Source: Akkermansia muciniphila (GTDB taxonomy: Bacteria > Verrucomicrobiota > Verrucomicrobiia > Limisphaerales > UBA9464). From it: a stretch of DNA of 64,000 nt. The stretch is from NCBI GenBank assembly GCA_945898055.1, contig CAMDGV010000014.1, forward strand, positions 1 through 64,000. Direction: 5' to 3'. The position numbers and the translations under genes were made by a program. The notes under the pieces are model-generated. The model was not told the DNA's origin and ran no database searches. It saw nothing but the letters and a program-made list of their open reading frames with translations. Shown here piece after piece: positions 2,785 through 15,105 of this stretch (the first letter of the stretch is position 1; each line of letters begins with the position of its first letter).

Positions 2785-3396
2785 GTGACTCTTCTGCCGT
2801 ATCCCTGTCCAAGTGCTGTGTCGATGATGACAGAGAGAGCCTCTAATGACTGTGCTCCTGTGGAAACTCCCCAGGAGCTCGTGCTGGAAATGACTCTCGA
2901 ATTTGAAACAGTTTATGCCGAGCATTCGCGTCAGATCTTCTATTTAGCTCTTCGCCTTTTGGGCGATGCCGCTTTGGCTGAAGACGCCGCGCATGATGTT
3001 TTTGTAAAAGCATTCCGAAATTTTACCGGCTTTCGTGGCAGCGCAGATTGCCGCACTTGGCTCTATAAAATAACTATTAACCACTGCTCGAATCTTCGCA
3101 AAAGATGGTCGGCTCGTCATATTCATATCGCCGCCGAAGATGCCGTGTTCGATCAGTACGCATCCCTCGACTCAACCCCTCTTCAGAACTTGGAACTTAA
3201 GGAATTAGGGGAACGCACTCAAAAAACACTCGATGGGCTGCCTACCGAATATAAGCTGTTACTTCTTCTGGTTGGGGATCAGGACTTGTCCTACGAACAA
3301 ATTGGTACTTTAACCCAACAAACGGCCGCTGCCGTTCGCGGAAAGTTATATCGAGCACGGCGGGCCTTTTCTATCGCCTTTGCAAGATCTGCTTAA
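2785..3396 (+). CDS. ECF-type RNA polymerase sigma factor
   Basis: The protein has the two domains of an extracytoplasmic-function sigma factor. Region 2 runs from FETVYAEHSRQIFYLALRLLG through DAAHDVFVKAFRNFTGFRG and the WLYKITINHC segment that contacts the -10 element. Region 4 is the C-terminal helix-turn-helix (LPTEYKLLLLLVGDQDLSYEQIGTL, then AVRGKLYRARRAF). The GTG at 2785 gives 203 aa; ATG codons at 2824/2827 would give 190 or 189 aa, closer to the usual size, and I cannot decide between them. It is the first gene of a tight ten-gene run ending at 9816, so it may control that cluster. No classical anti-sigma with a membrane helix follows it; the next gene is a small soluble protein. Confidence 0.87.
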   Translation: MTLLPYPCPSAVSMMTERASNDCAPVETPQELVLEMTLEFETVYAEHSRQIFYLALRLLGDAALAEDAAHDVFVKAFRNFTGFRGSADCRTWLYKITINHCSNLRKRWSARHIHIAAEDAVFDQYASLDSTPLQNLELKELGERTQKTLDGLPTEYKLLLLLVGDQDLSYEQIGTLTQQTAAAVRGKLYRARRAFSIAFARSA

Positions 3397-3409
3397 TCCT
3401 CGTTTTACT

Positions 3410-3640
3410 ATGAACTCCCAAAAAAAACACCTGAGGCAGACCGTCCATCCAATCGGGAGCCAAGAGATTCAGGAGACCTTAGGCTCGGCTAAGGCCCTTG
3501 ATTTCGCAACGCCTGAGGCCCTGCTCCAGTTTGACCGATCGATAACCACGACTCCCGTCGCATTGCGCCATCGAATTGTGGAAACTTTAACCCAAACGCC
3601 GAAGAGCAATTCAATTCCATGGTGGAAACGCCTCTTTTGA
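3410..3640 (+). CDS. small protein of unknown function
   Basis: This is a 76-aa polar protein starting at the ATG at 3410, 13 bp after the sigma-factor stop. The frame extends upstream to 3380, but that start would lie inside the sigma gene. It has no signal peptide, membrane helix or cysteines, and ends in a tryptophan/arginine-rich tail (IPWWKRLF). The 3' end overlaps the radical SAM gene by 22 bp, which supports translation as part of one operon. Its position directly after an ECF sigma gene allows the inference that it regulates that sigma factor, but no anti-sigma fold can be recognised. Confidence 0.6.
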   Translation: MNSQKKHLRQTVHPIGSQEIQETLGSAKALDFATPEALLQFDRSITTTPVALRHRIVETLTQTPKSNSIPWWKRLF

Positions 3641-4509
3641 ACGCGACCCAAAATTTTAAACTCGCGCGAAATCGATCTGCTTTGGCCGCCGGTCGAGCGG
3701 CCGAGGCACGGACTCATTTAAAGGCCTGTTATCTTTGCGCTCACCGTTGTGGAGTGAATCGTCTCGAGGGACATCAAGGGCCGTGTCATGCCGGCCCAAT
3801 AGGGCGTGTCTTCCATTCCCAAATTGAGGTCGGCGACGAAGCAACGCTGGCCCCAGTCTTTGCTCTGGCTTTCAGCGGTTGCGATTTGCGTTGTGACTTC
3901 TGCAATACCGGACGCGAAAGCTGGGACGCAACTGCGGGCGAATCACCCGATCTACGCTCTTCCGGTGCGCTAATGGGTCGACTGCAACGTGCCGCTGCCG
4001 CTGGCACAGTTCGCAGCGTCATGATTCTGGGTGGCGAACCCACAATTCATCTCCCTTCAGCACTGGAATTAGTCGCCTGTATTCCAGAGAATCTGCCGGT
4101 TGTTTGGAAGACAAATGGCCACGGAACCGCTGAATCAAATGCGTTACTGGATGGCGTCTTTGATACTTGGGTCGTCGATCTTAAATTTGGCAATAACGAC
4201 TGCGCCCAACGCATCGCTCGGGTCGCCGATTACACCCAGACGTTGCACTCCAATCTCCGTTGGGCTGCATCAAGGACGCGCCTCATCATTCGTCATTTGC
4301 TCATGCCAGGACATTTGGAATGTTGCTGGCACCCGGTGGCCACATGGATTGCCGCAAATCTACCCGGAATTGAGGTCAGTCTGCGGTCTGGTTTCTGGCC
4401 GGGTTGGTTTAGTTCGCGCCATCCAGAACTCCGTCGCACCGGATCGATTGGCGAAGAACGCGACGCCCGCCAAATCGGAATCAACCTCGGACTTCATCTC
4501 ATCCCATGA
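3619..4509 (+). CDS. PflX-like (COG1313) radical SAM protein
   Basis: This 296-aa protein has the radical SAM cluster motif CDLRCDFC (CxxxCxxC) at about residues 91-98. An N-terminal cysteine motif (CYLCAHRCGVNR, then GPCHAG) is typical of the COG1313/PflX group. Other matching elements are LGGEPTIHLPSALE (the GGE motif contacting SAM), PVVWKTNGHGT and VVDLKFGN. It should bind a [4Fe-4S] cluster and cleave S-adenosylmethionine to a 5'-deoxyadenosyl radical; the substrate is unknown for the family. The gene overlaps its upstream neighbour by 22 bp and the next gene by 4 bp (ATGA), so it is translationally coupled to both. Related proteins are sometimes called pyruvate formate-lyase activases, but no formate-lyase gene is present here. 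Confidence 0.82.
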   Translation: MVETPLLNATQNFKLARNRSALAAGRAAEARTHLKACYLCAHRCGVNRLEGHQGPCHAGPIGRVFHSQIEVGDEATLAPVFALAFSGCDLRCDFCNTGRESWDATAGESPDLRSSGALMGRLQRAAAAGTVRSVMILGGEPTIHLPSALELVACIPENLPVVWKTNGHGTAESNALLDGVFDTWVVDLKFGNNDCAQRIARVADYTQTLHSNLRWAASRTRLIIRHLLMPGHLECCWHPVATWIAANLPGIEVSLRSGFWPGWFSSRHPELRRTGSIGEERDARQIGINLGLHLIP

Positions 4510-4718
4510 CCTCTGAATCGACCCCTCGGTTAACCACCAATGATCCGCTAAAACTCACGCCTTCTTTTGTTGATGAGGGCGATAAAGTCGGCGCTGAAAG
4601 CGAATTATTGATCCTGTCGGACGGCCGAATTTTAGCCCACTATTTGACCCCAGAACTTTCCGACGTCATTCAGGCTGCTTTGAACCCGAGCGACACATCT
4701 AAAGATTCCACAGTATGA
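4506..4718 (+). CDS. small protein of unknown function
   Basis: This 70-aa acidic protein lies between the radical SAM and AAA+ genes, with 4-bp ATGA overlaps on both sides, which strongly supports it as a real translated gene. The centre (ESELLILSDGRILAHYLTPELSDVIQAAL) looks like two beta strands followed by a helix; both ends are polar and probably disordered. There are no cysteines or membrane segments. I do not recognise the family. Coupling on both sides suggests a subunit or accessory factor of one of its neighbours. Confidence 0.65.
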   Translation: MTSESTPRLTTNDPLKLTPSFVDEGDKVGAESELLILSDGRILAHYLTPELSDVIQAALNPSDTSKDSTV

Positions 4719-6280
4719 ACGCTCAATCTTTTGCCACTGAACTCGAGATTCTCATCCGTGCTCGGTACCCACTCATTTACATTCAGACCACCGAGGAACT
4801 CCGGATTCTTCCCCTTATTCTGGAAATCGCCTCGCGTCGCGGAAAGAAGGCGTTTGAATGGTCCTATTCTACTGGGATCGTTCCAGCTGGGAGTAACCTT
4901 CAAAGCCAGAAAGGGCGATCAGTTGCCACCAAGGATCCACTAGCAGCCTTGGATCAAGTGATGGACCAAGTTGAGCCTGCGCTTTTTCTATTCAAAGACT
5001 TTCACCCCTTTCTAGCGCGATCGAATTTTGCGGTGATTCGCAAGCTCAAGGACATTGCTCTGCACCTGAAGAACAGTTTTAAAACAGTGATTCTGGTCTC
5101 GCCGATGCTCGAGATTCCTGTCGAATTGGATAAGGAAATTACCGTCCTCAATTTTCCTCTACCAACCAAGCAGGATCTGGGACTGCTGCTCGATCGGATC
5201 TTGGAAGATGTTCGGTTAGTCAAGGAACTCCAGATCGATTTAGACCCAGCGGGACGTGATCGATTGTTGCAGGCCGCATTGGGCTTGACCCTAGGCGAGG
5301 CGGAAAATGTCTTCGCAAAAATTATCGTCAAAGATGCCTGTCTCAGCGGTCACGACGTGAACCAAGTTTTCGCTGAAAAACAGCAAATTATTCGGAAGAG
5401 CGGGTTACTCGAGTACTATGCTACCAACGATAACTTTGAAAATGTTGGTGGCTTGACCATCCTCAAAGACTGGTTAGTAAAACGATCGTGCGCTTTCTCC
5501 GAAGAAGCGCGTCTTTTTGGATTACCTTTTCCCAAAGGCGTCCTGCTCCTCGGGGTGCAAGGCTGCGGGAAAAGTCTGTGTGCCAAAGCCATCTCCAGCC
5601 TGTGGCAATTACCTCTCCTTCGCTTCGATATGGGGCGCATGTTTGGAAGTTTAGTGGGTTCATCTGAAGAGAATGTCCGGCGGGCGATTGCCGTTGCCGA
5701 ATCGGTGGCGCCGGCCGTGTTATGGGTGGACGAAATTGATAAAGCCTTCTCGGGATCTCAAGGCAGCGGTTCGAGCGACGGTGGCACCGCAGCGCGGGTG
5801 TTTGGCACCTTCCTGACTTGGCTCAGCGAAAAGACAGCCCCCGTCTTTGTAATCGCGACCGCAAATGATATTTCCCATCTGCCACCAGAACTTCTTCGCA
5901 AAGGGCGTCTGGATGAAATCTTCTTTGTCGATCTTCCTGGGGAACCTGAACGGGCGGATATTTTCAAAGTTCACATCGGTCGACGGGGACGTTTCCCAGA
6001 GAACTTCGATCTTCTGCGGTTGGCGGCTGCCTCAGCAGATTTCAGCGGTGCTGAAATTGAAGAGTCAATCAATAGTGCTTTGTACGAGGCCTTTTATTCG
6101 GGATCGGATTTGGCGACTGACCATATCCTAACTTCGATTCAGCAAACGGTTCCCTTGGCTCGCACTATGGATGAGCAAATTAACCGATTACGGAGTTGGG
6201 CCGAGGGACGGGCCCGAAATGCGAGTACTCCGCGCAGTCCGGAATTCGGAACACACCTCGTCCGTAAAGTGGAGTTCTAA
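4715..6280 (+). CDS. Ycf46-like AAA+ ATPase
   Basis: The 521-aa protein has an N-terminal domain (residues 1-230) starting with the pattern [20 protein letters not shown], as in the Ycf46 family of cyanobacteria and plastids, followed by one AAA+ module. In that module are Walker A GVQGCGKS (280-287), Walker B VLWVDEID (335-342), sensor-1 ATAND (381-385) and an arginine-finger segment RKGRLD (395-400). A helical lid follows ([18 protein letters not shown]). The sequence predicts ATP hydrolysis and a hexameric ring. Ycf46 proteins have no firmly established biochemical role. The following DUF1257 (Ycf35-like) and DUF2997 genes often accompany Ycf46 genes in cyanobacteria, so the three probably act together. 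It overlaps the upstream small gene by 4 bp. Confidence 0.85.
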
Positions 6281-6361
6281 AATCAAAGCTTAAAAGGAAA
6301 TGAAATCTCGACGTGACGAAACCTGCCTGTCTCTGTCCATTACTGCGGAATCTTTTTAATC

Positions 6362-6835
6362 ATGAGTGCCATCGTCATTATTACCCCTATTGTCATTGCG
6401 GCTTGGCCGGCCTTTGGATCGGCGGTTGCGGCCGCCGCCGTTTCCATGGGATTCACCGTGCTCAACGAGGGAGTCAATCAAACTCGATTAACTGAACATC
6501 AACAAGGGGGACTCACCGTTACTCTCGATGTTCCAAATAGTGCAGCGGTCACGGGCGGACTAGGTCGTGATCAACGAATTCGGATTGCTCGTGATGGGAT
6601 CATCGCCGAATTTAGTCGCGATGCCCGAGGACGCGATTCGGTCTGCGTCACGGGCGAAGGCTATTCCCAAGATGCCCTCCGATCAATGGGTGAAGAGTTG
6701 GCTGGGCGAACGGTGCAACAGTACGTGCTTGCCAAGCTAAAGACCGAAATGGCTGGCCGTGGGATGGATTTGGTGGAGGAGACCGTGGGGGAAGATAATT
6801 CGGTCCGATTACGGGTGCGTCACTGGCAAAATTAA
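6362..6835 (+). CDS. DUF1257 (Ycf35-like) family protein
   Basis: This is a 157-aa protein. The C-terminal part resembles DUF1257/Ycf35: RTVQQYVLAKLKTEMAGRGM followed by a strand ending in VRLRVRHW, the typical end of that family. The N-terminal 40 residues differ from Ycf35: they are strongly hydrophobic and alanine-rich (about residues 3-29) and could form a membrane helix or hairpin. If so, the protein may anchor the AAA+ partner at the membrane, which is an inference. It lies 81 bp after the AAA+ gene and 34 bp before the DUF2997 gene. The function is unknown in all organisms as far as I know. Confidence 0.68.
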   Translation: MSAIVIITPIVIAAWPAFGSAVAAAAVSMGFTVLNEGVNQTRLTEHQQGGLTVTLDVPNSAAVTGGLGRDQRIRIARDGIIAEFSRDARGRDSVCVTGEGYSQDALRSMGEELAGRTVQQYVLAKLKTEMAGRGMDLVEETVGEDNSVRLRVRHWQN

Positions 6836-6869
6836 GAGACTCAATCTAAATCCTGAATTCCGTAAATTG

Positions 6870-7070
6870 ATGAAAACCCGCGAATACGAAATCACGATCA
6901 GCCCGACTGGCGAGGTCGAAGTCCACCTCGATGGTTTCAAAGGGAAAGGATGTTTGGAAGCGATCCGTTTTTTTGAAAAGGTCATCGGTGAAACTAAAGA
7001 TGTCCGTCAAACCTCGGCGTTCTATGAACCGGACGAAGATGTTCAGATTCATAACGAACAACGCCACTAA
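6870..7070 (+). CDS. DUF2997 family protein
   Basis: This 66-aa protein starts at the ATG at 6870. It has the compact DUF2997 pattern: YEITISPTGEVEVHLDGFKG, then KGCLEAIRFFEKVIG and a terminal region with TSAFY. One conserved cysteine sits in the KGCLEA motif. The same frame stays open upstream but runs over the end of the DUF1257 gene, so the ATG at 6870 is preferred. DUF2997 genes are commonly adjacent to DUF1257 and Ycf46 genes in cyanobacteria; finding the same trio here, in a clearly non-photosynthetic setting, supports a general role unrelated to photosynthesis. The function is unknown. Confidence 0.75.
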   Translation: MKTREYEITISPTGEVEVHLDGFKGKGCLEAIRFFEKVIGETKDVRQTSAFYEPDEDVQIHNEQRH

Positions 7071-7085
7071 TCAACGTCTGCACGG

Positions 7086-7967
7086 ATGGATCCAAACTTC
7101 TCCAGCTATTATCCGCCACGGGCCTCGGACCGTTGGATCCCAAAAGGTTGGAGCCAAGCTCTTGATCGAATTTACCTGTGGATTAAGCGAGGTTGGCTTT
7201 TTGCCCCCGCGTCCGAGAGTCTTTCTCTCCAGAGCTTTGATTTGATTCTGGGCGCGCTCATTCCTGGCTACGGCTACTCCTTGGTCGGTCAACGACGATT
7301 GGGTCAACTAATGTTCTCAGGTTGGGTCGTCTGCGGGCTGCTTTTGGTCATCTTCTTAGCCTCGAGCTTCACTGGGTATCTCTTGATCGCAATGACATCC
7401 TGTCATGCCAATGGGGTGGGAACTTTGTGGATGCAGTGTCTCAAAGCTATAAAAAAACAAAAATTGTCATTGGCGTTTCAAATCTTAATTCCTCTCGTTT
7501 GTTTTGGGGTGTACCTAGTCCTTTTATATCAACCTGCCCTCAAAGGTTTCCAAAATACGCTCGCTTCTCCCCAACGAATAGTTCCTTTGAACAAATCGGT
7601 TTTAATCAATCCTCGTGTTGCTGCATTCGAGTTGAGGCGCGGTGATTTTATCGCCTTTCATCATGCAGAAATTCGTACGGGGAACTTTCTGCTACGGAGG
7701 GGTTTGCTGACCGGACGAGTTCTGGCTTTGCCGGGGGATCGAATCGAGTTCACCCCCCATTCAGTGAGTATAAACGGACAATCATTACGTCGGGAACCAA
7801 GTATGCCAACGGAGGGGAAAATTGTCCTCCGCGGCAAGCAGTGGTTTGTCTGGCCGACGGTCCAATTTGATGGGCTGGATCCGCTGCACTTTGCGGTAGT
7901 CGATCAGACCGCATTGATGGGGCGCGCCTACGATCGATGGTGTTTTTTCAAACAGAATTTACCATGA
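7086..7967 (+). CDS. membrane protein with degenerate S26 (signal peptidase-like) domain
   Basis: The 293-aa protein has about three membrane helices between residues 50 and 160, including a GALIPGYGYSLVGQRRLGQ hairpin. A C-terminal domain follows whose strands match signal peptidase I/LexA-like S26 folds: RRGDFIAFHHAE, then GRVLALPGDRIEFTPHSVSINGQ. In active enzymes a serine in an SMxPT-like motif and a lysine just before RVxxLPGD are required. Here the first region reads VLINPRVAAFELRRGD with no serine, and the lysine position is glycine (TGRVLALPGD). It is therefore probably not a protease; a binding or scaffold role is inferred. It starts 15 bp after the DUF2997 gene and overlaps the TPR gene by 4 bp. 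Confidence 0.66.
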   Translation: MDPNFSSYYPPRASDRWIPKGWSQALDRIYLWIKRGWLFAPASESLSLQSFDLILGALIPGYGYSLVGQRRLGQLMFSGWVVCGLLLVIFLASSFTGYLLIAMTSCHANGVGTLWMQCLKAIKKQKLSLAFQILIPLVCFGVYLVLLYQPALKGFQNTLASPQRIVPLNKSVLINPRVAAFELRRGDFIAFHHAEIRTGNFLLRRGLLTGRVLALPGDRIEFTPHSVSINGQSLRREPSMPTEGKIVLRGKQWFVWPTVQFDGLDPLHFAVVDQTALMGRAYDRWCFFKQNLP

Positions 7968-8728
7968 GCCGCTTTGGAAAACTGGAATTTGAATCCGATC
8001 AAAAGAAAGAAAAGATTGAACGCCCGATCTTAGGCGAGACGCATTGGGTTGAGGTAGCAGATCGGAGCTTTTACCAAGCTGAATTTGAACCTGCCTTACG
8101 ATGGTACGCGCGGGTTCTAGAATATAATCCGGCGAATACAACCGCGTGGGCAGGACAGGTTCGTTGCCTTATCGAACTGGGAGAATATCGCGAAGCTCGA
8201 CTCTGGGCCGATAAAGCACTCGAACGATTTCCTCAGAGCCCAGACCTTTTAGCTTCTAAAGCAGTTGTACTGGCTCGCCTCGGTGACCTCGATACTGCCT
8301 TGGCTTTTTCTGATGCGAGTGTCGAAGAGCGAGGTGATACGGCCTATGTGTGGCTCGCACGTGGAGATGTACTGATCGCTAGAAATGAGAAGCATTCGGA
8401 TCATTGCTTTGAACGGGCGAACTCTATGCGGCCCAGCGATTGGACCATCGCTTGGTTAGGCGGTCGCATACGTTTGCACTACAAACAGTTTGCCAAGGCA
8501 CTGCAACTCGCCCGAGAGGCTTGCTCCCTGGCGCCCGGTGAACTTAACCCGTGGCTCCTTTCCGGCGAATGCCAATTAGCCCTTGGTTTCACAGAACAAG
8601 CCTACAATTCTTTCACTCAAGCAGGCCAAATTCAGCCAAATTCGATCGCCGCACGCGACGGCCTTTATCGGTCGGCACAGACCGGGTTGTTCAGCCGTCT
8701 CGGTTCTTTTTTCCGTCGCCTTCTTTAG
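7964..8728 (+). CDS. tetratricopeptide repeat protein
   Basis: This 254-aa protein starts at an ATG overlapping the upstream stop by 4 bp. From about residue 35 it consists of helical pairs with TPR signatures: YQAEFEPALRWYARVLEYNP, then a repeat with GEYREARLWADKALERFP, one with GDLDTALAFSDASVEERG, and a last with GFTEQAYNSFTQAGQIQP. There are about five to six repeats and a short basic aromatic tail (FSRLGSFFRRLL). No signal peptide is visible, so it is probably cytoplasmic, perhaps held at the membrane through the preceding gene's product. Such repeats mediate protein-protein contacts. The next gene starts 2 bp downstream. Confidence 0.8.
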   Translation: MSRFGKLEFESDQKKEKIERPILGETHWVEVADRSFYQAEFEPALRWYARVLEYNPANTTAWAGQVRCLIELGEYREARLWADKALERFPQSPDLLASKAVVLARLGDLDTALAFSDASVEERGDTAYVWLARGDVLIARNEKHSDHCFERANSMRPSDWTIAWLGGRIRLHYKQFAKALQLAREACSLAPGELNPWLLSGECQLALGFTEQAYNSFTQAGQIQPNSIAARDGLYRSAQTGLFSRLGSFFRRLL

Positions 8729-8730
8729 TG

Positions 8731-9816
8731 ATGAACGCCCTTATCTCAGATTTTATCCACCCAAGGCTGAATGGACTCCTTGCCTACGCCGCTGAATTGG
8801 GAGCTTCTGATCTCCATTTGATTGCAGGGGTTCCTCCGGCATTTCGAGTGACTGGTGAGATTATTCTGGCCGATCAAGACGCCCTCTCCCAGCAAGAGTG
8901 CAATGCGATGTCTCTGTCTCTTCTAAACGAGACTCAACAGCAGAGATTGGAACAAGACTGGGAACTCTGTTTGTCGATCCGCCATGCGATTAGCGGTCGG
9001 ATTCGGGTTACTTTTTATCGACGCAATGGCATCACTGAACTCAGTTGTCGCTTCTCCACGAACTACTTTCCCAGTCGCGACGAATTGGGACTGCCGGTGC
9101 GTCTTGATGAACTCACTCGTAAGCAGACTGGGCTAATCCTTATTACCGGTCCAACCGGGGCTGGTAAAACCACCACCTTCAACTACATGATCGACCGGCT
9201 CAACAGCGAGCGACGATGCAAAATCTTGACCATTGAAGACCCTATCGAACGCGTTCACGAAAATCGTCGAGCGATCGTTGTTCAACAAGAAGTGCTCACC
9301 GATGTCCGGTCTTTTAATCGCGCACTCGTCCATGCTTTACGACAGGATCCCGATGTTATTTGTGTTGGTGAAATGCGAGATCACGAGACGATTCAAACGG
9401 TTCTGACGGCAGCGGAGACGGGGCATTTAGTCTTAGCGACCTTGCATGCGCCCAATGCAGTTCATGCCATAGAACGAATCGTAGGCGTCTTCGAAGGAAG
9501 TGCGCAAAAGCAAGTTGTGCTCCAGTTAGCCAACACTCTCCAAGGGATTATTTCGCAAGATTTACTCCCCAGCATTGATCGGTCACGCCGGGTCTTGGCC
9601 TATGAGCTTCTAATGGTCTCGCAAGCCTGTCGGGCGATTATTCGGGAGAACAATTTACATCAATTGCCGACAGCCATGCAGTTGAGTGCTCGCGAGGGCA
9701 CGGTCCTGATGGACAACTGTCTTCATGATCTTTATTCACGGGCTATTATTAGCTACGATACTGCGATTTCTCGGGCGCGTGATCCCGAGCGATTTCAATC
9801 AGCGGGACTGTCGTAA
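8731..9816 (+). CDS. PilT-like type IV pilus retraction ATPase
   Basis: Starting at the ATG at 8731 the protein has 361 aa, the usual PilT length; the frame is open further upstream but only inside the TPR gene. The N-terminal PAS-like domain contains LGASDLHLIAGVPPAFRV. The core has Walker A GPTGAGKTTT (140-149), an Asp box ILTIEDPIE (165-173), Walker B DPDVICVGEMRD (206-217) and a His box TGHLVLATLHAPNA (230-243). These mark a secretion-superfamily hexameric ATPase of the PilT/PilU group, which drives pilus retraction in the cytoplasm. No other pilus genes are near, and it sits at the end of the AAA+/DUF1257 cluster, so it may power something other than a classical pilus. Confidence 0.85.
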   Translation: MNALISDFIHPRLNGLLAYAAELGASDLHLIAGVPPAFRVTGEIILADQDALSQQECNAMSLSLLNETQQQRLEQDWELCLSIRHAISGRIRVTFYRRNGITELSCRFSTNYFPSRDELGLPVRLDELTRKQTGLILITGPTGAGKTTTFNYMIDRLNSERRCKILTIEDPIERVHENRRAIVVQQEVLTDVRSFNRALVHALRQDPDVICVGEMRDHETIQTVLTAAETGHLVLATLHAPNAVHAIERIVGVFEGSAQKQVVLQLANTLQGIISQDLLPSIDRSRRVLAYELLMVSQACRAIIRENNLHQLPTAMQLSAREGTVLMDNCLHDLYSRAIISYDTAISRARDPERFQSAGLS

Positions 9817-10510
9817 GTTGTCTCCTTTCCTCGTAGATTTAGATGCTGAAGAGTCGCTGAATCCATCCGCCCTTCAATAGATCCAAAGGGCCGTGACAAA
9901 ACCGGGCTTTCCGCCTGTTCTTTGGCAATTCGCCCACGCTAGAATCCGTGCGTTCTGATGGGGAGCCGGATGGAAACCTCCGATCGAGAGCGCGTTGTGC
10001 GTGGATCCTTTAGAGTGTGGCCGGACTGATCCCTCGAAACAGTTCCCGCTGTCGTGAACTGTGTTTGCCCTGAAGCCCTTGGTAATGGGGTAACCACAAC
10101 GGCAACGCCGGTGCCAAGCGTTTTCCGCAAGGCTGCTCGGCGAGCTAGGCCAGGGGGTCGTATCACCCAGCAGTTTGATCGCCTACTTGCGCTCGTAACC
10201 CTAGTCTTCGTTTAACCATCAATCAGAGGAGAACGTCCAAGCACCGGTTTTCTGATCGCGTGTTAAGGAAAGAATTCAAGGTTGAATCTCGACTGGTCGG
10301 CGAGGTGAAAATGAATATCCTTCGCTTCAATTCGCCGCTGAGACAGGTTTAGGATATTCCGCTTAACTCATCCAGATTGAGGGTTCTGATTGTGTTGTCC
10401 TTCGAGGCCGTGACGACCGCGTTATAGCACAGTCCAAGAAGGTGGGGGTGAAGTGAAAACCCCTAAGTTTGTCCCTGTTCTGTGTCTGTTCATCACGAGG
10501 TTTTTTTAAA
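9817..10510. other. gene-free stretch before the RHS island
   Basis: About 700 bp with no convincing coding frame. Short frames occur on both strands but have no recognisable family and no good start context. I see no tRNA, CRISPR or clear terminator. The GC-rich part at about 10060-10160 is moderately self-complementary, but I cannot assign it to a known RNA family. Confidence 0.5.
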
Positions 10511-10706: not shown

Positions 10707-11771
10707 GTGGGGCTCAAAGGTACGTCCAGCGGAGGCTCCTACGGGAAATGGGTCCTTGCTTCGGAGACCCGCTATTTCTATGACGGCATGCGGGTGATTC
10801 AGGAACGGAATGTTCAACGACAATTATTCTTCCCCCTGGGAATACTAATCGTCGTTGTACAACGGAACATCAACGGGGTTCCGACGGTGGCCTACACGCG
10901 AGGTCCGGACCTGAGCGGCACCCTGGAAGGAGCCGGGGGCATCGGCGGGCTTCTGGCCCGCAGCGAGTGGGATGGCAGCGCTTGGCGCAGGCACGCCTTC
11001 TACCACTCCGACGGCGTCGGCAACGTGACGGCGCTGGCCGTGCCCAACGGTAACGACATCGCGCTGGCAGGCAGTTACCGCTACGACCCGTTCGGCCGGC
11101 TGATCGGCACCCCCACCGACCTGGCCGCCCGCAACACCCAACGCTTCAGCAGCAAAGACTGGCACAACCCCAGCGGATTCTACTACTTCGGCTACCGCTT
11201 CTATGATCCCGCCACCCAAAGGTGGTTGAATCGGGATCCGATTGGGGAGGAGGGTGGGGTGAATTTGTATGGGTATGTTAAAAATGATCCGATCAACGGA
11301 ATTGACCCGTTAGGACTCAGCAGCATCCAAGCTCAGGTATTGGTCGCTATCGCAAAAGGTGATCTGGTAGCGCTTGAATCCTTGCTTGCGACCGGAATGC
11401 TGAGCCCAGTAGCAGCGGCACGGGTTCAGGAGGCGATCAACAGACTCAACTCACCAGCTGTACAAGCTGGTTTGGATAAGGCTTGCAAGGTCGCAAGGAC
11501 GCCAGCGCAAATTGGCGGCGAACTATCAAAACTCATTTCTCAACCACAAAGGAAATTGATTCATGATTTTTTTGGAGCAGGTTTAGAGGGTGCAGAATCG
11601 GCATTCCAGAATCTCGCTAAGGGTGGTAACCTTCCTCAAGGGTTGACCCAAGAAACCTTGGAGACTTATCGGAAAATTGCTCAAAATGCGATTAACGGTG
11701 GGATTGACATAATCGGAACACAAGCCGCAAGGCTCAAGGCGATTGAAGAGGCTTTGAAGAAATTTCAATGA
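10707..11771 (+). CDS. RHS repeat tip with novel C-terminal (putative toxin) domain
   Basis: The protein (354 aa from the GTG at 10707; homology extends back to about 10665) contains the end of an RHS barrel and its core motif: YRYDPFGRLIG, then FYYFGYRFYDPATQRWLNRDP, ending in YGYVKNDPINGIDPLG at about residue 205. After this PxxxxDPxGL-type junction comes a roughly 150-residue helical domain (LSSIQAQVLVAIAKGDLVAL to EEALKKFQ) with no cysteines and no family I recognise. Variable domains after the RHS core are typically toxins. There is no N-terminal delivery region, so this is an orphan tip, probably displaced from a full RHS gene. Residues 34-52 are encoded by an inserted palindromic element. 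The next gene overlaps by 4 bp and is the likely immunity gene. Confidence 0.72.
   Translation: MGLKGTSSGGSYGKWVLASETRYFYDGMRVIQERNVQRQLFFPLGILIVVVQRNINGVPTVAYTRGPDLSGTLEGAGGIGGLLARSEWDGSAWRRHAFYHSDGVGNVTALAVPNGNDIALAGSYRYDPFGRLIGTPTDLAARNTQRFSSKDWHNPSGFYYFGYRFYDPATQRWLNRDPIGEEGGVNLYGYVKNDPINGIDPLGLSSIQAQVLVAIAKGDLVALESLLATGMLSPVAAARVQEAINRLNSPAVQAGLDKACKVARTPAQIGGELSKLISQPQRKLIHDFFGAGLEGAESAFQNLAKGGNLPQGLTQETLETYRKIAQNAINGGIDIIGTQAARLKAIEEALKKFQ
10811..10860. repeat. 50-bp palindromic element inserted in frame in the RHS gene
   Basis: Compared with the second RHS copy (12527 onward), the first copy carries 57 extra bases: a 50-bp element plus a duplicated AACGGAA (10804-10810 and 10861-10867). 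The element is an imperfect palindrome: arms 10813-10834 and 10838-10859 pair at 18 of 22 positions around the loop CCT. The insertion adds exactly 19 codons without a stop. Sequence plus flanking 7-bp duplication indicate a small mobile palindrome (MITE/REPIN-like). Confidence 0.8.
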
Positions 11772-12178
11772 ACAAGTTGCTCGTAATCATAAATAGCCCC
11801 CCCACTTTTGCGTTCATAGATAAAAGCATTGATCGCGATTGGAGGGATAGCGGCCTTGGCGACTGGCTTGGTTTTTATGACGTTTTGCGAAATGAGTCTG
11901 GCCACCCGCAAGGGGTCCGATTTTGGCCATTTGAGGATGCTGCGAAGCTTATCTCGCGACTTGAGGCATCATCAAACGTGAGGTTTGGAGACGCTGGCAA
12001 CTCAATCTGCTTATTGTTTAGGCCAGATGCTGAGTGGGTTGAGTCCAGATCAGGAGACCAATGGATGGAAGAGGCTAGGCTATTGCTCGGGCCGAGTGGA
12101 TCACTGGCCCTGCTGTTCGGGTTCGACGTAATGCCGATGGACGAACGAAGAAGGCTTGAATTGGCTTTGCCTTCGTGA
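11768..12178 (+). CDS. putative immunity protein for the RHS toxin domain
   Basis: This 136-aa acidic protein starts at an ATG overlapping the RHS stop by 4 bp (ATGA). It has no signal peptide or membrane helix; the pattern of alternating strands and helices suggests a compact cytoplasmic alpha/beta fold (LLVIINSPPTFAFIDK, GDWLGFYDVLRNESG, WMEEARLLLGPSGSLALLFG). I do not recognise a family. Its role is inferred from position: small acidic genes immediately downstream of RHS C-terminal domains usually encode the antidote. Base composition is lower in GC than the RHS core upstream, as is common for toxin/immunity modules acquired separately. Confidence 0.6.
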   Translation: MNKLLVIINSPPTFAFIDKSIDRDWRDSGLGDWLGFYDVLRNESGHPQGVRFWPFEDAAKLISRLEASSNVRFGDAGNSICLLFRPDAEWVESRSGDQWMEEARLLLGPSGSLALLFGFDVMPMDERRRLELALPS

Positions 12179-12311
12179 ATTTTTCGGATGTTTGAACTAC
12201 TAACCGCCCGTTGTACCGCCAAAATGTGTAGAAGAATCTAGCGACGCTGAGGCCGTAAAAGGGTCAGTTCTTGATATTGATAGGTATATCGCCCAAAGCC
12301 ACTCTCCCGGC

Positions 12312-12489
12312 CTAGCCCGCAAATTGAGAGTCGAGTTTGCTGGCGCACATCATGAATGGTGGTGACAGGCGCGAATTGATCTTCATGGATGATGCGGATC
12401 GCCAGCGCTTCGTTGACGCGCTGGGCGAGGCTTGCGCCAAGGCGGCGCCGGGTCACCCGGGAAGAAATCAAGGGCTCGTCCGGGCAATA
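12312..12489 (+). pseudogene. REP-associated tyrosine transposase (RAYT) N-terminal fragment
   Basis: The sequence encodes the characteristic RAYT N-terminus in two frames: ARKLRVEFAGA (from about 12315), then, after a small deletion near 12345, HIMNGGDRRELIFMDDADRQRFVDALGEACAKA. In intact proteins the join reads like GAxYHVMNRGDRRE. The start position reads CTA instead of ATG. The catalytic HUH/tyrosine part is absent because the sequence fuses at about 12489 to an RHS fragment. Such enzymes mobilise REP-type palindromes, which may be relevant to the 50-bp palindrome 1.5 kb upstream. Confidence 0.72.
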
Positions 12490-12982
12490 GGTCCTTGCTT
12501 CGGAGACCCGCTATGTCTATGACGGCATGCGGGTGATTCAGGAACGGAACATCAACGGGGTTCCGACGGTGGCCTACACGCGAGGTCCGGACCTGAGCGG
12601 CACCCTGAAAGGGGCCGGGGGCATCGGCGGGCTGCTGGCGCGCAGCGAGTGGGACGGCAGCGCTTGGAGCAGGCACGCCTTCTACCACTCCGACGGCGTC
12701 GGCAACGTGACGGCGCTGGCCGTGCCCAACGGTAACGACATCGCGCTGGCGGGCAGTTACCGCTACGACCCGTTCGGCCGTCTGATCGGCACCCCCACCG
12801 ACCTGGCCGCCCGCAACACCCAACGCTTCAGCAGCAAGGACTGGCACAACCCCAGCGGATTCTACTACTTCGGCTACCGCTTCTATGATCCCGCCACCCA
12901 GAGGTGGTTGAATCGGGATCCGATTGGGGAGGCCGACGGCCCGAACCTCTACGCCTACGTTCGCAACCGGGCTTTTAAATGA
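12490..12982 (+). pseudogene. second RHS core fragment
   Basis: From GTCCTTGCTTCGGAGACC at 12490 this segment is nearly identical to the first RHS tip for about 440 bp and encodes the same core (YRYDPFGRLIG to WLNRDPIGEA). It lacks the palindromic insert. A TAG lies directly before the homology, and after the core the frame runs only ten residues (NLYAYVRNRAFK) before stopping at the right-hand direct repeat. It has neither an N-terminal region nor a C-terminal domain, so it is a remnant. An ATG at 12527 could allow a 151-aa product, but I doubt it is functional. Confidence 0.75.
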
Positions 12983-14457: not shown

Positions 14458-15105
14458 TTAGTCAACAAAATCGCCCAGAAAAACCTGAAGTTGCTGGCGA
14501 GCATAAAATAGCCGAGACCGAACTGTTCCGACATTTATCTTCAACAGCGAGGCAATCTGGTCATGGGGCATCCCCTGAATATCGTGAAGGGTCACCACCA
14601 AGCGGTGTTCCTCTGATAATTTTAAAAAAGCGTCGTTGAGTCGGCGTTGAAGTTCGGCCAAACGAGCGTCTCGATGGGGCGTCCTATAGGAAACTAACTC
14701 AACCAAAGCCGGGTCATTCTCCGCCTGAATGTCCAAATCATTAAGACTGATATGAACACTCCGATTCCGTCGACTTTTGAGATGATTTAAGCACGTATTG
14801 ACGGCAATTCGGTAAATCCAAGTGTAAAAACTTGAGTCCGCCTTGAATCCACGAAGTGCCTGCCATGCTTTGACAAAGGAATCCTGAGCAAGATCATTGG
14901 CGTCGTCATGATTGGAGCTCATGTGATAGCAGAGCCCGTAAATCTGCTCCTGATGCTTGCCAACCAAGGCGTCGTAAGCCTTCAAATCACCCGCCTGAGC
15001 TTGCCTCACCAAACGCCGCGACTCTTCTGCCTCCTCTGTCTTGGACAAGGAGTGGACCAACGCCACCGAGTCAACGGGTGCTTCCATTAGTAACGCTAAA
15101 CTCAC
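14458..15105 (-). CDS. ECF RNA polymerase sigma factor (RpoE-like)
   Basis: The 215-aa protein has sigma region 2 (YDALVGKHQEQIYGLCYHM, DANDLAQDSFVKAWQALRGF, SSFYTWIYRIAVNTCLNHLK) and region 4 (LSEEHRLVVTLHDIQGMPHD, QIASLLKINVGTVRSRLFYA), the latter being the helix-turn-helix for the -35 element. About 30 extra residues precede region 2, so an internal start is possible. It starts 6 bp after the polyprenyl synthase stop and is followed by a one-TM protein that may be its antagonist. Co-transcription with an isoprenoid-chain enzyme hints at a cell-envelope stress response, which is an inference. Confidence 0.9.
   Translation of the reverse strand: MSLALLMEAPVDSVALVHSLSKTEEAEESRRLVRQAQAGDLKAYDALVGKHQEQIYGLCYHMSSNHDDANDLAQDSFVKAWQALRGFKADSSFYTWIYRIAVNTCLNHLKSRRNRSVHISLNDLDIQAENDPALVELVSYRTPHRDARLAELQRRLNDAFLKLSEEHRLVVTLHDIQGMPHDQIASLLKINVGTVRSRLFYARQQLQVFLGDFVD

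Follow-up and report, generated by a model that had tools for sequence, protein, structure and literature searches.

Results and discussion

A ten-gene cluster in the window

The first 64,000 nucleotides of contig 14 (CAMDGV010000014.1) of the Akkermansia muciniphila assembly GCA_945898055.1, a genome of 4.63 Mb in 136 contigs, were analysed and are called the window. Ten genes lie on its plus strand between 2.8 and 9.8 kb, where an earlier note made from the DNA letters had placed them. They follow each other in the order extracytoplasmic function (ECF) sigma factor, orf2, radical SAM protein (rSAM), orf4, Ycf46-like AAA ATPase, DUF1257, DUF2997, S26-like protein, TPR protein and PilT-type ATPase (Table 1). 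Pfam and NCBIfam supported the family labels of that note (sigma-70 regions 2 and 4, Radical_SAM, AAA, DUF2997, Peptidase_S26, TPR and the PilT family). Its count of five overlapping junctions, four of them ATGA, was too high: four genes pairs overlap, orf2 and rSAM by 22 bp and rSAM/orf4, orf4/AAA and S26/TPR as ATGA, and the remaining gaps measure 13, 81, 31-34, 15 and 2 bp.

The window DUF1257 protein had no Pfam match at E ≤ 1. Among its aligned orthologues 13 of 16 match PF06868 (best 3.9e-8), and a profile-profile comparison with hhalign gave a probability of 97.8 % for the C-terminal half, thus the label DUF1257 is right, for a divergent copy. A function could not be taken from its structure, since the best VIA-align Z of 6.7 is no better than unrelated folds often give. 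The rSAM carries the CX3CX2C motif as CDLRCDFC plus an N-terminal cysteine motif. In orf4 the pattern 'ELLIL.DGRILAHNLTPELA..L' is conserved, in orf2 the pattern 'FatpEelLrfDa..tpvP..l..Rv..s....WW+RL(F)'.

Table 1 Features of the cluster in the window
Feature	Position	Strand	Basis
Promoter-like motif 1, CGTGAC-N16-TGTCCAA	2784..2812	+	conserved upstream of sigma in Verrucomicrobiota clusters
ECF sigma factor	2824..3396	+	Pfam Sigma70_r2 and r4_2 over cut-off; promoter position
orf2, 76 aa	3410..3640	+	own HMM; immediately 3' of sigma wherever sigma occurs
Radical SAM protein	3619..4509	+	Pfam Radical_SAM 46.7 bits, cut-off 29.5
orf4, 70 aa, between rSAM and AAA	4506..4718	+	alignment
Ycf46-like AAA ATPase	4715..6280	+	Pfam AAA 96.6 bits; AlphaFold model
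AAA C-terminal tail RKVEF, candidate docking peptide	6263..6277	+	co-occurrence with DUF1257/DUF2997
Promoter-like motif 2, CGTGAC-N16-TGTCCAT, before DUF1257	6312..6340	+	inside the 81-bp AAA-DUF1257 gap
Divergent DUF1257 (Ycf35) protein, hydrophobic N-terminus	6362..6835	+	orthologue Pfam matches; hhalign
DUF2997 protein (start ATG 6870, or TTG 6867)	6870..7070	+	PF11211 43.6 bits, cut-off 24.1
S26-like membrane pseudoprotease, 2 predicted TM segments, conserved N-terminal PPRA	7086..7967	+	PF10502 31.3 bits, cut-off 22.9
TPR protein; N-terminal motif MSRFGKLEF at 7964-7990	7964..8728	+	Pfam TPR
PilT-family ATPase, full length	8731..9816	+	TIGR01420 363.7 bits, cut-off 319.1

Conservation of the cluster

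Clusters in relatives were found with profile hidden Markov models (HMMs) built from orthologues, and a scan of a genome collection of 84,980 species yielded 80 loci, whose phylum names are the labels of the submitters. The ten-gene order is kept through the genus. It recurs, with unrelated sequence on either side, at loci from other families and from a further order of the class (L046-L048, L104, L138-L142). Clusters with this order but lacking the sigma factor and orf2 were present in further classes of the phylum (L106-L109) and throughout the Planctomycetota. Among the loci of the latter phylum, DUF1257, DUF2997 and the S26-like gene were each found in 15 of 15, TPR and PilT in 14 of 15 and rSAM in all 13 with enough flanking sequence. 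A further locus labelled Planctomycetota (L201), on a contig too short for this count, has AAA, TPR and PilT only, and in L202, from Riflebacteria, and in another bacterial locus (L220) the cluster parts stand in shuffled order. The same genes in the same order between unrelated flanks, across families, another order and another phylum, are more than chance would give. By these sequence comparisons the cluster is one conserved, widespread and hitherto undescribed system. The neighbours of the Ycf46-DUF1257-DUF2997 trio are co-conserved with it in related genomes and in another phylum, so that the survey of neighbourhoods does not refute the earlier note, and the gene set behaves as one unit across relatives. 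Tandem duplications within clusters were seen twice, with two DUF1257 genes in L157 (5034-6005) and two AAA genes in L220 (3-3164).

A sigma gene of its own is present in the window cluster and conserved in Verrucomicrobiota; it is not universal and is absent from the clusters of Planctomycetota. Sigma factor and orf2 occurred in none of the 13 Planctomycetota loci with enough flank versus 21 of 24 Verrucomicrobiota loci; this distribution marks the pair as a Verrucomicrobiota addition.

Core and dispensable genes

The cluster had been described as built around the trio of Ycf46, DUF1257 and DUF2997. Minimal genomes do not bear this out: they keep AAA, TPR and PilT without DUF1257, DUF2997 and the S26-like gene. 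Among 39 relatives, 21 have both the cluster-type AAA and the cluster-type PilT and 15 have neither (Fisher p 8e-8, a value to be taken as indicative only, since the loci share descent and p-values overstate the evidence). The three exceptions are two truncations at contig ends and one genome of 74 % completeness. In seven genomes the two genes are unlinked. Five genomes (G020, G021, G022, G026, G037) have sigma-orf2-AAA or AAA alone, with PilT elsewhere, mostly beside TPR; in G021 and G022 no TPR gene lies beside the unlinked PilT, and no genome-wide search for TPR was made there. Other clusters are split, with an upstream half of sigma-orf2-rSAM-orf4-AAA (L044, L045) and the downstream half on another contig (L136, L137). 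The joint presence and absence of AAA and PilT, even where unlinked, defines from gene content an always-kept core of Ycf46-like AAA, TPR and PilT-type ATPase. DUF1257, DUF2997, the S26-like gene and mostly rSAM/orf4 appear as a second, dispensable set whose members are mostly lost together. This set is not perfectly all-or-none, because L049 has kept rSAM/orf4 without DUF1257, DUF2997 and S26, and L193 an S26-like gene without DUF1257. Where the cluster-type AAA stands alone, it adjoins NHL/beta-propeller or TPR genes in L205, L212 and L221 and a peptide deformylase gene in L208 and L215.

Sigma factor and promoter motifs

The open frame of the sigma gene reaches back to 2785, and GTG 2785 had been taken as its start. 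This codon lies inside the -35 box of the conserved motif at 2784-2812; the gene therefore starts at GTG 2818 or at ATG 2824/2827. The alignment of sigma-upstream sequences gave CGTGAC-N16-[TG]GTCNAA with a fixed 16-nt spacer, immediately 5' of the sigma start codon. In the window the motif stands 5-14 nt before the possible start codons, and the sigma transcript is a candidate for a leaderless mRNA. A weight matrix built from 32 sigma-upstream sites, applied with a threshold score of at least 14, revealed another copy in most sigma-bearing lineages including the window, usually 47-82 nt upstream of the HMM start of DUF1257, and no match in 510 kb of shuffled sequence. The motif also precedes the split-off DUF1257 gene (L137) and, where DUF1257 is missing, the TPR gene (L049, L171, L290, L296). 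In the whole genome, motif 1 had one strict match. A relaxed pattern had eight, the two cluster promoters, one duplicated copy and five others; a wider sigma regulon was rejected, as these five are close to the control level of four. We read the motif evidence as pointing to a sigma factor of the ECF type that serves only the system it belongs to and is autoregulated. The product of orf2, without match to a Pfam or NCBIfam family, possibly is the sigma partner; by its adjacency to the sigma gene it is a candidate for the position of a cognate anti-sigma factor.

A second ECF sigma gene in the window (14458-15105, minus strand) is 29 % identical to that of the cluster. Downstream of the cluster, a weaker match to the promoter matrix (score 17.2) at 10409 precedes an Rhs-type fragment, and at 10707-12982 there are repeated Rhs-like C-terminal fragments whose cores are nearly identical and whose tails differ. 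A 179-bp copy of window 6178-6356, that is the 3' end of AAA with promoter 2, was found with 97 % identity at G000:C71 11127-11305 (L054). It precedes two unrelated paralogous genes and is flanked by an imperfect direct repeat of ~25 bp, which looks like the insertion of a fragment with target duplication.

AAA ATPase and shared terminal motifs

Sequence and alignment divide the AAA protein into an N-terminal module without Walker A and a C-terminal module with intact Walker A and B. Its AlphaFold model (predicted local distance difference test, pLDDT, 84.7) matched p97 in Foldseek with E 1e-22. Model residues 2-500 aligned to p97 residues 208-763 (D1 and D2) with a VIA-align Z of 27.2 and a root mean square deviation (rmsd) of 7.5 over 391 residues, a high value that leaves the relative placement of the two modules uncertain; D2 by itself matches closely (rmsd 3.0 over 267 residues). 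The protein is thus predicted to be p97-like, with a dead first and an active second ATPase domain.

The AAA C-terminus follows the pattern R[KR]x[LVIM]E[FLI], the TPR N-terminus M[SG]RFxxLE[FLIMV] in 57 of 58 orthologues, and the C-terminus of a rhomboid encoded in relatives reads RLEL, FDNIEL or FVDID. One short motif thus recurs at these three ends. Among non-redundant loci of the cluster type (type I), the AAA tail was present in 52 of 56 with DUF1257/DUF2997 versus 5 of 38 without. The prediction that tailed genomes without a local DUF1257 carry this gene elsewhere, and tail-less ones do not, was then tested. Three of the five tailed genomes have DUF1257 at another place (L144, L147, G030), and G028 has a cluster-type DUF2997 at a contig end (L136). 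In 22 tail-less genomes no type I DUF1257 was detected, apart from one weak C-terminal match of 26 bits. The simplest reading is a docking of the AAA tail on DUF1257/DUF2997. The TPR head motif persists in loci without DUF1257, hence it must have another partner as well.

These observations bear on the view that the cluster genes are co-regulated under stress, as one operon, but that their products do not belong to a single machine. The ECF control in the window cluster, the separability of the modules (L044/L136, L045/L137) and the stress-responsive operon of Ycf46 in Synechocystis (PMC7496141) are in line with it. However, AAA and PilT accompany each other from genome to genome, also where they are unlinked, and the common terminal motifs together with the dependence of the tail on DUF1257 point to a physical coupling; we consider a mere stress operon improbable.

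Relation to Ycf46 clusters of cyanobacteria and mobile elements

Literature naming Ycf46 or DUF1257/DUF2997 deals mostly with cyanobacteria and plastids, and no paper on such a cluster was found in the literature combining Ycf46/DUF1257 with PilT and Planctomycetes. In Synechocystis, DUF2997-ycf35(DUF1257)-fed7 form one cluster (PMC4284462) and Ycf46 (slr0374) belongs to a separate stress operon (PMC7496141), thus the trio, treated as a unit in the earlier note, is split there over two clusters. Inactivation of Ycf46 is reported to lower the EcaB carbonic anhydrase activity (Jiang et al. 2015, as cited in PMC7496141). Homologous AAA, DUF1257 and DUF2997 proteins occur in both the cyanobacterial or plastid and the window sets, an Fe-S partner is encoded nearby in both, and the stress-type regulation of Ycf46 may be likened to that of the window cluster. 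In contrast, the Synechocystis clusters as described have no sigma factor, S26-like, TPR or PilT gene, and none of the ten window genes codes for a ferredoxin, with rSAM in place of fed7. The window AAA is of full-length Ycf46 type and 45-47 % identical to cyanobacterial plasmid copies, e.g., 47.3 % over 97 % of the length to an AAA on a Pseudanabaena plasmid that adjoins DUF2997 and lies near DUF1257. Most AAA proteins of the canonical type lack the C-terminal RKxEF tail or have a different one.

Verrucomicrobiota also have the canonical Ycf46-DUF1257-DUF2997 cluster, beside DUF3150, DnaN-like (weak Pfam match) and NrdG-like genes; an NrdG-like 4Fe-4S gene stands in L124-L126 and L134, a DUF3150 or DnaN-like gene in L114 and L115, which suggests mobile elements. 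Canonical Ycf46-like AAA genes were recorded on 70 plasmids and in 54 phage records. One could then suppose a defence or mobile-element system in the window as well. Yet the cluster fits none of the PADLOC system models, and the weak matches, IetA among them, are mainly to the ATPase domains of AAA and PilT; the order is kept through the genus between unrelated flanks, and the cluster-type AAA shares only 37-51 % identity with the canonical type. We regard such a role as very improbable, and the window cluster is a different system from the canonical one. Anti-phage defence as such was rejected, the PADLOC matches being partial domain matches only. The best plasmid match of the AAA, 53 % identical, is encoded with a Fer4_12 protein in a contractile injection system cluster of Treponema succinifaciens plasmid pTRESU01 (L315). 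A contractile-injection ATPase was discarded as a candidate, as no such genes occur in the window cluster or among the genes checked next to AAA-only loci.

An rSAM-like or ferredoxin gene near canonical trios (L124-L126, L134; fed7, PMC4284462), rSAM in all 13 Planctomycetota loci with enough sequence and the conservation of orf4 could also indicate a maturation system centred on rSAM, which would modify orf4, DUF2997 or the RFxxLEF-type tails while the ATPases and the S26-like protein assemble or export the product. But rSAM, orf4, DUF1257 and DUF2997 are dispensable and missing in minimal genomes, and the cluster lacks precursor-peptide features, a transporter and an active protease, so that we give this explanation little credence.

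Membrane pseudoproteases

The S26 domain, called inactive-looking before, has indeed lost the catalytic Ser/Lys dyad. The lysine position is a glycine in the window (TGRVLALPGD versus VKRIIGLPGD of the solved signal peptidase 4nv4) and the serine box is absent; protease activity was rejected on these residues in the family alignment. With signal peptidase I the protein has the membrane anchor and the S26 domain (Pfam) in common. Unlike that enzyme it lacks both residues, has the conserved PPRA and, in Planctomycetota, an N-terminal zinc ribbon. This ribbon, of the CxxC...CxxC type and placed before PPR[AM], was observed in Planctomycetota and other classes (L106, L107, L108, L145, L149, L157).

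Relatives have an eleventh gene, usually upstream of rSAM, which encodes a rhomboid (Pfam Rhomboid 116.9 bits in L106 and 43.4 in L157, cut-off 22.6). In 18 loci with such a gene, GASG and the histidine are kept in L105, L106 and L109 only; the other 15 are pseudoproteases by sequence. No further gene family was recurrent in the clusters of relatives.

PilT-type ATPase

The term retraction-type ATPase used in the earlier note is right by family, TIGR01420 being matched over its cut-off. Like the PilT/PilU retraction ATPases, the cluster PilT is full length with all ATPase motifs: Walker A and B, Asp and His boxes are kept and align with those of PDB 2gsz (E 1.4e-80). Unlike these, it belongs to a distinct subfamily, 52-76 % identical inside and at most 44 % to other full-length PilTs of the same genomes (in the window genome, at most 37 %), and its gene does not stand among pilus genes. 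Part of the cluster pilT, 379 bp long (window 8752-9130), recurs with 91 % identity at G000:C1 119234-119612 (L291 7235-7613), directly upstream of a response-regulator-like gene.

The strongest rival explanation starts from this protein. As an accessory of type IV pili or type II secretion, PilT would serve as alternative retraction or pilin-extraction motor, AAA, TPR and their partners would regulate or recycle it, and the membrane proteins would be its docking platforms. A core of AAA, TPR and a full-length PilT with all motifs agrees with this, as do the other PilT/PilB-type ATPases present in all ten genomes checked. However, Pfam and NCBIfam searches detected no pilin, PilB, PilC, PilM or PilQ among the ten cluster genes, recurrent additional families are missing, and the identity to the PilTs of the same genomes is low. 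A genome without the system (G120) has PilT/PilB-type ATPases too, and rSAM, pseudoprotease and DUF parts are left unexplained. A pilus accessory seems unlikely to us, but deserves more weight than the other alternatives.

A putative membrane-protein remodelling machine

A single membrane-associated machine, as suggested by the earlier note, is plausible. Our preferred reading, held tentatively and short of calling it probable, is a sigma-switched machine for membrane-protein remodelling that resembles derlin-p97 and has a PilT-type second motor. The sequences show that the operon is conserved, that AAA and PilT co-occur, that promoter motifs are present, that the protease residues are lost and that the tail goes with DUF1257, and the p97-like fold is predicted; inducing signal, complex, client and extraction are inferences. 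A membrane or envelope stress of some kind would activate the ECF sigma factor, which would transcribe the operon it belongs to from one promoter upstream of sigma and another upstream of DUF1257. The p97-like AAA with dead D1 and active D2 would be the unfoldase and the PilT-type hexamer a second motor, with the TPR protein linking both. DUF1257/DUF2997 may act as adaptor gripping the AAA via its C-terminal RKxEF tail. The S26-like pseudoprotease, in relatives joined by the pseudorhomboid, would form the membrane part and offer membrane proteins to be extracted, much like derlin in the case of p97/Cdc48; clients are possibly pilins or pseudopilins. Radical SAM enzyme and orf4 may mature one component.

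The system taken for comparison is the retrotranslocation by derlin, a rhomboid pseudoprotease, and Cdc48/p97 (PMC8641752). Alike are the p97-like D1-D2 AAA (Z 27), the inactive rhomboid in many clusters and a short cytosolic terminal motif on the membrane protein, which is not an established SHP box. Different are the lack of ubiquitin, Ufd1/Npl4 and proteasome, a D1 without Walker A and the missing p97 N-domain. PilT, TPR, rSAM and S26-like parts have no counterpart in endoplasmic reticulum-associated degradation.

Several observations weigh against the remodelling machine. The rhomboid is absent from the window's own genome and genus, thus the derlin analogy rests there on the S26-like protein. 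Minimal genomes with AAA, TPR and PilT have no membrane partner, so that the core does not depend on the membrane module. The presence of PilT fits type IV pili better than an extraction of the p97 type. The DUF1257 model (pLDDT 73) gave no clear fold match, with no Foldseek hit at E ≤ 0.001. As to the docking, L160 has the AAA tail and no DUF1257 was found in a genome-wide check, and L161, L164, L168 and L218 have DUF1257 but no tail.

To our knowledge, the families Ycf46, DUF1257 and DUF2997 have no established molecular function. The cluster gives them defined partners and a promoter logic, and the binding of the five-residue AAA peptide to DUF1257/DUF2997 is directly testable. In its fullest form, which we put forward with considerable doubt, the reading describes an undescribed bacterial membrane-protein extraction system as functional counterpart of derlin-p97: two inactive proteases, S26-like and in relatives rhomboid-like, would feed a p97-like unfoldase that is linked to a PilT-type motor; the RFxxLEF / RKxEF / RLEL motif would hold the assembly together and, in Verrucomicrobiota, the system's own ECF sigma factor would switch it. 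If the extraction reading is true, Planctomycetota and Verrucomicrobiota would have a bacterial derlin-p97 analogue with a built-in pilus motor.

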